Made by a program: the position numbers and the translations under genes | Origin: a bacterium | Lineage (GTDB): Bacteria > Patescibacteriota > Saccharimonadia > Saccharimonadales > UBA4665 | Assembly: GCA_021799595.1 (NCBI GenBank) | Contig: JAJZAF010000002.1 | Coordinates: 1-64,000 of the forward strand | DNA: 64,000 nt | Reading direction: 5' to 3' | The notes under the pieces: model-generated | Databases searched by the model: none | Told to the model about the DNA's origin: nothing | What the model saw: the letters and a program-made list of their open reading frames with translations, nothing else | Part shown: positions 40,498 through 42,413 of the stretch, piece after piece | Numbering within the stretch: the first letter of the stretch is position 1 | Layout: each line of letters opens with the position of its first letter

Positions 40498-40830
40498 ATG
40501 ACGGCCACCGCTGCCAAGCCAGAAATAAAGCAACGCATCCGAATTCGTCTGAAAGCATACGATCATAAAGTCATTGATCAAGCTGCCAAACAAATCATTG
40601 ATACAGCATTGAGGACGGGAGCCAGCTTAGCGGGACCCATACCTTTACCGACTAGAAAAAGTACCTTTACGGTCGTGAAGAGTCCGCATGTCTTCAAAAA
40701 AGGACGTGAACAGTTTGAGATGCGGATTCATAAGCGTCTTATTGATGTGTTTGAACCGACTCCAAAAACGATAGACAGTCTCATGAATCTTTCGCTACCG
40801 GCCGGTTGTGATGTTGAAATCAAGATGTGA
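40498..40830 (+). CDS. rpsJ: 30S ribosomal protein uS10
   Basis: Head protein of the small subunit and NusE antitermination partner, 110 aa. Recognised by [34 protein letters not shown] and the [17 protein letters not shown] end. Good GAAGGAAG before the ATG. It directly follows tuf, and the rest of the S10 operon resumes only at 42414 after two unknown genes and a separate promoter. Confidence 0.98.
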
Positions 40831-40922: not shown

Positions 40923-41885
40923 ATGGATTCTAAAAGTGCTCTTGAAGCAGTCGCAGCTATCCGTTTGACAGTGCCGCCCGAACAATTAAAAGACTTTGAT
41001 ACTCAACTTGCTGAGCAATATGGTCACACTGCTGAAATAGCTGGCCCTCTTGCTGTTCAGGCTGAGGCTGACGAAACTTTGCCTAAAAAAGAAATTAAGT
41101 GTTTTTTGAATGCTTCGATTGAAATGTCGTCTGAGCGCCAACTTGACGTGGTGCGTCAATTCTGGGAGGTACTAGGTTGTAAAATGCCTGAACTCGATGA
41201 GAAGCAAAAAGCAGCATTAAATAACACAATTGAAAGAAATCCCTTCATGCGTGTCATGCCTGCTCCTTTATTGGACATAAATGGTTGTAAAACTATTGCT
41301 GAGCGGGCGCGTTCAGCCTTTCGAAATCAGCATCTGTTTGCCATCAGACAAAACGTTTTATGGACACCAAACGAAAGCTATATGATACATGCTAAGCTTC
41401 TAAAAGATCCAGAGTCTATAGTCAAAGAGGGTCGTGTGTCATACGGAATACGTTATAAATCTCCTGATAGCGGTGAACTCTTAACGAAAGACCGCTTTGG
41501 CGCTCGTCTCCGCAAGATTGGTAAGGGTATTGAAGCCGATGGCGTCACCTGGGTCTTCCCAGTCATGGATGTACGGGTTCAAAGTGAACGTATCTGCGCT
41601 CCTGCTGGTGCGTTGCACCAAAAAGTAGAGCCTACAGTAGTACCTGAAGTGCTTATCGGTATGCAATTGTTGCATCGGGCTAGTGGCACCCCTAATTCTG
41701 ACTATCATGTAGATTTTGCCAATGAAGCAATTTACAAGTTAGACAAAAAAGATGTACCTAAAACTCCGGTACATGTTACCAGTGTTTATTGGTATCCTAA
41801 CGATCGTCGGGTCGTCTTGCTTTATTGGCATGCTGACAGCCAGAATGAGGACTTTGGCGTTCGTGCTGCGGAAAATGGGCTCTAA
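40923..41885 (+). CDS. Unknown 320-aa protein inserted between rpsJ and rplC
   Basis: Soluble, mixed alpha/beta composition, no signal peptide, membrane helix or motif that I recognise. The C-terminal half is rich in beta-strand-like hydrophobic/polar alternation (VLWTPNESYMIHAKLL, VHVTSVYWYPNDRRVVLLYW). A Leu/Ala/Glu-rich N-terminal 60 residues may be helical. It splits the rpsJ-rplC junction that is contiguous in most bacteria. No clear Shine-Dalgarno; an AT-rich tract with a possible TAATC-like box precedes the ATG. Confidence 0.65.
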   Translation: MDSKSALEAVAAIRLTVPPEQLKDFDTQLAEQYGHTAEIAGPLAVQAEADETLPKKEIKCFLNASIEMSSERQLDVVRQFWEVLGCKMPELDEKQKAALNNTIERNPFMRVMPAPLLDINGCKTIAERARSAFRNQHLFAIRQNVLWTPNESYMIHAKLLKDPESIVKEGRVSYGIRYKSPDSGELLTKDRFGARLRKIGKGIEADGVTWVFPVMDVRVQSERICAPAGALHQKVEPTVVPEVLIGMQLLHRASGTPNSDYHVDFANEAIYKLDKKDVPKTPVHVTSVYWYPNDRRVVLLYWHADSQNEDFGVRAAENGL

Positions 41886-42050: not shown

Positions 42051-42236
42051 GTGTCTACAGATAAAGAGGATTTTTTGCAAACATTGATTATGACTGCTGT
42101 TTATGGAAACAGGGGCTATTTGAAGGTTGAGGCTTTCAATCATATAGGGATTCCAGCAGTGGATGAAGATACTCTTGACATTGAAGAAATACTTGAACAC
42201 ATTCCAAGAAGTAGAGTGTGTATATGGCACGTATAG
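42051..42236 (+). CDS. Small hypothetical protein (61 aa), tentative
   Basis: GTG-started frame (MSTDKEDFLQTLIMTAVYG) with a reasonable composition, acidic C-terminal half and no recognised domain. There is no Shine-Dalgarno, and the -10 candidate TAGATC is too close (4 nt). It sits between the 320-aa unknown gene and the rplC promoter. It may be real or a remnant. Confidence 0.35.
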   Translation: MSTDKEDFLQTLIMTAVYGNRGYLKVEAFNHIGIPAVDEDTLDIEEILEHIPRSRVCIWHV

Positions 42237-42252
42237 TAAAGTTAGCAACAAG

Positions 42253-42293
42253 TTGACAGGGGTAAGAGGAGCATGATACTCTAGTACAGTATC
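42253..42293 (+). promoter_or_regulatory. Promoter of the rplC operon with inverted repeat over the -10 box
   Basis: TTGACA (42253-42258), 16-nt spacer, GATACT (42275-42280). The -10 box is the left arm of a perfect inverted repeat GATACT-ctagtac-AGTATC (42275-42293) that also spans the expected start site, so it could be an operator or a hairpin at the 5' end of the RNA. Confidence 0.6.
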
Positions 42294-42299
42294 TTAGTT

Positions 42300-42379
42300 T
42301 CGACTGCACTTGGTACGTGTTTGCAGGTCTGCCAACAACAGAGGTAGAAACCGCTCACTACCAAGCATTTTTTTGTCGA
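42300..42379 (+). promoter_or_regulatory. Structured rplC leader with attenuator-like stem and T-run
   Basis: Nested complementary arms: TCGAC (42300-42304) with GTCGA (42375-42379), and TGC-ac-TTGGTA (42305-42315) with TACCAAGCA (42359-42367). The inner stem is followed at once by seven T (42368-42374). The roughly 43-nt loop contains smaller hairpins. The layout resembles a ribosomal-protein autogenous leader or attenuator; the Shine-Dalgarno GGAAGGAG lies about 25 nt downstream. Confidence 0.55.
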
Positions 42380-42413
42380 CTTTAAGAATATTCATGTAAG
42401 ACGGGAAGGAGAT

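Follow-up and report, generated by a model that had tools for sequence, protein, structure and literature searches.

What controls the synthesis of ribosomal proteins in a bacterium whose operon begins with rplC, the rpsJ gene having moved elsewhere? The question is posed by a genome of approximately 0.9 Mb from the Saccharibacteria, of which we have analyzed a stretch of 64,000 nucleotides (the window; all features described below lie on its forward strand). An original prediction had placed a leader with an attenuator-like hairpin upstream of rplC, and an operator-like palindrome at its promoter. By comparison with related genomes we find that the leader contains an RNA hairpin that is conserved, covaries, and has a U-tract behind it, and that the palindrome is not conserved. 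On balance we lean toward the view that this is a ribosomal protein (r-protein) leader attenuating the rplC operon, with L4 as the best guess for its ligand; both the ligand and the termination step are putative.

The rplC Locus and Its Promoter

The genes in the window run from fusA through to tuf, followed by rpsJ, an open reading frame of 320 amino acids, a gap of 528 nt, rplC, rplD, and the remainder of the S10/spc block. rpsJ (S10; 40498–40830, Pfam PF00338) lies beside tuf, about 1.6 kb from rplC. rplC (L3; 42414–43028, Pfam PF00297) is the first gene of the presumed controlled operon. The second is rplD (L4; 43028–43672, Pfam PF00573), the product of which is a candidate autoregulator.

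For comparison, 100 genomes belonging to the same order (Saccharibacteria) provided rplC with 2.5 kb of upstream sequence, and rplC, rpsJ, and tuf were located in each. The separation of rpsJ from rplC, with rpsJ accompanied by tuf, is common to the whole order, and the size of the gap varies among relatives. The L3 gene was the nearest gene at every locus examined. The content of the rpsJ-rplC interval changes from genome to genome; the 320 amino acid open reading frame of the window (40923–41885), situated between rpsJ and the rplC leader, has no Pfam match, and no homologue was found in the regions taken from the 100 relatives.

In 88 of 89 genomes the leader is preceded by a dedicated promoter. 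The −35 sequence of the window is TTGACA (42253–42258); TTGAC occurs in the same proportion of genomes, at a distance of 95 nt or less from the leader on its 5′ side. The conserved −10 is an extended element, TGATACTCT, located 18 nt from TTGACA. It reads TGA-TACTCT in the window (42274–42282), and its order consensus is TGnTA[A/C]TCT. The position originally assigned to the −10 differs by two bases from the conserved TACTCT (42277–42282). Transcription is predicted to start at about 42289–42290.

A further element lies 5′ of the −35 (42236–42249; GTAAAGTTAGCAAC in the window). Its order consensus is GTAGAATnnrCAAC, with half-sites GTWG/CWAC, and most positions contain 0.9–1.4 bits of information over 88 promoters. 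Together with TTGACAG it occurs once in its own genome. It is possibly an activator site or an UP-like element. Extra conserved bases, ACAGnnGTA, are seen in the −35/−10 spacer of the window (42256–42264) and its relatives. In some relatives, including those at class level, inverted repeats are formed with the −10, such as GAGTAAC-N8-GTTACTC and TATCAG-N8-CTGATA. Overall, inverted repeats in the spacer barely exceed those of shuffled sequences, and any signal of covariation inside the promoter is swamped by relatedness.

The two halves of the proposed operator, GATACT (42275–42280) and AGTATC (42288–42293), are present in the window. Among 88 aligned promoters, all six pairs of GATACT-N7-AGTATC are found in the window only, and five are found in one other. 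Moreover, the 64 kb window contains 21 perfect 6 bp repeats with the same spacing. The palindrome is not conserved, and was discarded as an operator.

A Covarying Hairpin in the Leader

Folded alone, the leader is unremarkable, with a z-score of −1.3 and 18 of 200 shuffles equally good. The question is therefore settled by comparison, and it is the comparative evidence that bears the claim. Matches to the leader DNA were found in 26 of 40 related genomes. Forty leaders were aligned using MAFFT without a structural model. Under the implied structure 90% of cells are paired, and the doubly changed cells exceed those in all 500 shuffles. Later alignments were fitted to a covariance model, and so lean toward the structure. 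In the aligned hits from the order there are changes on both sides at 15 of 17 pairs, and 170 doubly changed cells compared with 50 ± 10 in shuffles. The covariation score for this set is 0.365, falling to 0.107 or less when one strand is slid by one to three columns. Covariation is strongest in the broad set, with a score of 0.480 against 0.167 for shuffled sequences.

Relatedness was allowed for by counting switches from one Watson-Crick pair to another on a tree of L3. This gave at least 147 switches in total, with 10 at the last pair of stem P1. Covariation is thus strong across the order, and the inner stem and T-run that drew attention to this DNA belong to a conserved, covarying RNA. 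Conservation of the stem had been named beforehand as one point on which the proposal could fall, and the stem is conserved. The leader therefore has a feature expected of r-protein leaders, a conserved covarying structure in the 5′ UTR of r-protein genes.

The whole motif occupies 42301–42377. It was recognized by covariance models R1 (order hits), R2, and R3 (broader), with scores of 74.2, 72.7, and 66.3 bits (E = 6e-13), respectively. Placed side by side, the leaders share a common layout. The 5′ half comprises CUUGGU, 8–12 nt, A, RGUC, and then a hairpin, while the 3′ half comprises GA(A/U)ACY, about 8 nt, ACCAAG, NA, UUUUU, and AUG. Within this layout the core, A-RGUC...GA(A/U)ACY, contains one bulged A and a bulge of two bases; the hairpin at the apex is variable.

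P1 is formed by CUUGGU (42309–42314) and ACCAAG (42360–42365). In this stem 98.3% of cells are paired, and double changes occur at all six pairs. The pairing first proposed here, TTGGTA (42310–42315) with TACCAA (42359–42364), is present; the relatives back the addition of C42309-G42365 at the base of the stem, but an additional TGC/GCA pairing is not conserved. In P2, GC (42323–42324) pairs with 42353–42354, and the pair types vary between GC, AU, UA, and CG. The bulged A (A42325) lies between P2 and P3. P3 is formed by GGU (42326–42328) and ACC (42350–42352); for its first pair the L3 tree requires 12 or more switches between G-C and A-U, and the other two (last) pairs are invariant. The apical hairpin P4 (CUGCC-AACAACAGA-GGUAG, 42329–42347) has strands at 42329–42333 and 42343–42347. 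Its pairs have undergone at least 5, 18, 21, 13, and 13 Watson-Crick switches, and its length is highly variable among genomes, from very short up to tens of nucleotides. The conserved two-base bulge AA (42348–42349) lies between P4 and P3, and is part of the GA[A/U]AC[C/U] motif. Straight after P1 comes the U-tract of seven U (42368–42374, the T7 of the original prediction), a putative site of termination or pausing.

An outer helix, P0, may be drawn tentatively between 42292–42304 (UCUUAG, UCGAC) and 42375–42387 (GUCGA, UUAAGA). It contains the TCGAC (42300–42304)/GTCGA (42375–42379) pairing suggested at the outset. This pairing folds in the window, where the free energy is −29.7 kcal/mol with P0 and −21.7 kcal/mol without it, but its comparative support across the order is weak. 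The flanks pair better with their own than with a foreign partner (z about −4), in a permutation that ignores relatedness. P0 is compatible with P1, and is not an alternative to it.

Distribution of the Leader

Using R1, the motif was found before rplC in 88 of 99 relatives, in addition to the window. A search with R3 run without filters adds six, so that the motif is present in about 94 of 100 genomes of the order. There is one copy in the source genome, where the next best match has E = 1.7; paralogous leaders were sought elsewhere in this genome and none was found. The relatives mostly have one motif per genome. Two of them (G148 and G012) carry an additional leader together with part of an rplC gene at the end of a contig, which probably reflects a mixture of strains in the assembly. 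All hits checked in detail lie directly before rplC, bar chance matches in G584, G147, and L081; that in G584 is away from rplC and was set aside on this account. In its own genome and in the hits examined the motif is thus confined to the front of r-protein operons, as would be expected for an r-protein leader.

The motif extends beyond the order. R1 with strict filters gave matches in half of a class-wide sample. Outside the order, the five hits first examined are located before rplC, with P1 rewritten in a compensatory manner (for example CUAGG/CCUAG and CUGAG/CUCAG); in one of these the start codon comes next, at the end of the contig. Among 20 further rplC regions, in a search space of 25 kb, there was a match with E ≤ 1 in 17 and with E < 0.01 in 13. 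In phylum-wide samples nothing above chance was found beyond the class except in G390, which is among the matched regions just mentioned but belongs to another class, and where the hit lies about 25 nt before rplC; the other hits had E values of 0.06–0.3.

The U-Tract and Proposed Transcription Attenuation

T is found at +3 to +6 after P1 in 85–87 of 90 genomes. A run of four or more U, starting 2–3 nt after P1, is present in 83 of 90, compared with 4 of 90 in a control stretch. The arrangement of an intrinsic attenuator, a hairpin followed immediately by a U-tract, has therefore been kept between species. Within the order the motif lies 13–253 nt from rplC, and this freedom of distance favors control of transcription over the masking of a ribosome-binding site at a fixed position.

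A gene for NusA is present in the source genome. No Rho was found over the curated cut-off in this genome, which is 99% complete; the best match scored 42 bits compared with a cut-off of 509, and such weak Rho-like matches may be other ATPases. The presence of NusA and the lack of a Rho above cut-off are consistent with an intrinsic attenuator. A short stem whose base is rich in A-U pairs, P1 would be a weak terminator without help. We also considered a short upstream open reading frame that would begin with the conserved AUG 3′ of the U-tract. Its lengths and frames are random, and 20 of 90 genomes have no start codon there, so the idea was rejected.

Outside the order, inspection by eye often shows an interrupted U-tract (for example CUUAUUUAUG), and the start codon is no more than a few tens of bases away from the motif. 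Control of translation is thus also possible there. In one order-level family (f35, five loci) the leader is followed immediately by the conserved AAGUGGGAG and the rplC start, an arrangement in which the leader adjoins the ribosome-binding site.

Discussion

We propose that a strong promoter of the extended −10 type would initiate transcription near 42289, and that the first RNA made would fold into the irregular hairpin P1–P4, with a core that resembles a protein-binding site (bulged A, RGU/ACY, and AA bulge). An r-protein encoded in the operon (L4 being the most likely) would bind this core and stabilize the hairpin whenever its supply exceeded that of 23S rRNA. The bound hairpin, together with NusA, would then cause RNA polymerase to halt at the U-tract, reducing expression of the whole rplC-rplD-rplW-rplB... 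operon. Three observations suggest transcription attenuation: few parts of the leader are as well conserved as the U-tract, the distance to rplC is free, and NusA is encoded in a genome where no Rho exceeds the cut-off. The nomination of L4 is a best guess drawn wholly from prior knowledge, since this protein controls the operon in E. coli (PMC10931766) and has been proposed as the ligand of an archaeal leader (PMC7247131).

The same device might instead sense another product of the operon, such as L3, or L23, L2, L22, or others. L3 is a fair alternative; its gene is the one nearest to the leader at all loci examined, and in a survey of new r-leaders the ligand is often taken to be the product of the closest or only gene (PMC7247131). 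However, L4 is the sole established regulator of this operon elsewhere, as well as the protein proposed for the archaeal rplC-rplD leader, and we regard a different ligand as a real but distinctly lesser prospect. Rather unlikely, too, is a leader that, once bound by protein, affects mainly translation or RNA stability instead of termination. This would suit the class-level relatives and the one order-level family in which the motif is at most a few tens of bases from the start codon, the more so as the U-tract is weaker where the motif abuts the start, and P0 would enclose the U-tract. Against this, within the order the U-tract is among the best conserved elements, while the stretch that separates it from the ribosome-binding site is free to vary in both length and sequence.

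A hairpin with a U-tract is also just what an ordinary, unregulated intrinsic terminator would look like, and a simple stability hairpin might be considered alongside it. Yet this one lies directly 3′ of its own conserved promoter and 5′ of an essential operon, and has invariant bulge nucleotides and covariation across the class; we think it scarcely likely to be unregulated. Kept through well over a hundred paired changes, the hairpin is almost certainly a switch for r-protein production. Control chiefly by a DNA-binding regulator at the promoter, through the palindrome, the GTAGAATnnrCAAC element, or the −35/−10 spacer, seems very improbable. The strong conservation and single occurrence of the element 5′ of the −35, and the conserved ACAGnnGTA of the spacer, would fit such a regulator. 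The GATACT/AGTATC palindrome is nevertheless unconserved and the spacer repeats are just above shuffles, and a regulator of this kind would leave the covariation of the RNA unexplained, although it could act additionally. We thus return to r-protein-dependent attenuation as the reading that we prefer. The chances seem to us evenly poised that the leader is an undescribed r-leader family, near-universal in Saccharibacteria and sporadic beyond, that arose in the Patescibacteria and confers L4- or L3-dependent attenuation on a rearranged S10 operon by means of an RNA unrelated to that of E. coli.

The leader is a defined and testable candidate for an RNA switch governing ribosome production in Candidate Phyla Radiation bacteria, and the covariance models can be used to annotate the element throughout the class. 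If the proposal is true, feedback control would have arisen convergently in an ultra-small lineage that has few known regulators and lacks a recognizable Rho. A different RNA with the same job would show how easily such control can evolve again.

Comparison with Known Leaders

In Rfam 15 no family matched the window leader or 16 of its relatives at the gathering score, and at E ≤ 10 the window leader gave a single chance match to a microRNA and none to an r-leader family. Our literature search found no r-leader reported for Saccharibacteria or Candidate Phyla Radiation bacteria. Mimicry of 23S rRNA sequence was also considered. Covariance and motif searches of E. coli 23S rRNA and that of the source genome gave matches that were at chance level or badly paired, and the idea was dropped; GAAACC also occurs in E. 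coli 23S rRNA near 674, and nothing here links it to L4. Aligned with its E. coli counterpart, the 23S gene of the source genome has two extra stretches, possibly introns: one of about 888 nt following position 2262 and one of about 301 nt following 1951 (E. coli numbering).

The L4 protein of E. coli acts on a leader to regulate the S10 operon, with the participation of NusA (PMC10931766). The present leader resembles that system in serving an operon that carries rplC and rplD, in having a run of U downstream of an irregular hairpin, and in the availability of NusA, and putative autoregulation by L4 would follow the same logic. In contrast to E. coli, where the leader precedes rpsJ, here it precedes rplC. 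The S10 leader of E. coli was not matched by the covariance model; the lone match at that locus is at chance level, and lies antisense within rplC. By eye the two leaders have no core in common, and by these comparisons the hairpins here are not those of E. coli. Given this lack of relation in sequence or structure, any attenuation by L4 would be analogous to that of E. coli and not an inherited copy.

A closer parallel in position is a leader candidate of the Archaeoglobi, located before rplC-rplD-rplW-rplB, which has been proposed to respond to L4 (Eckert and Weinberg, 2020; PMC7247131). It occupies the same place in the operon as the leader described here, but is archaeal, and the likeness is one of position. 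The S10 r-leader of Firmicutes/Clostridia (PMC7247131) likewise serves an S10-type operon, but in another phylum, and no Rfam family was matched here. In the L20 and L10(L12)4 leaders of B. subtilis, an excess of r-protein promotes premature termination (PMC10931766). The logic is that proposed here, while the operons and ligands differ. The L10 leader of B. subtilis employs mutually exclusive structures, for which we found no evidence in the present case from the one additional pairing tested, P0. Since its position and structure differ from those of E. coli, we do not class the leader as an E. coli-type L4 leader, but rate it as a new RNA family that would work like known r-protein leaders.
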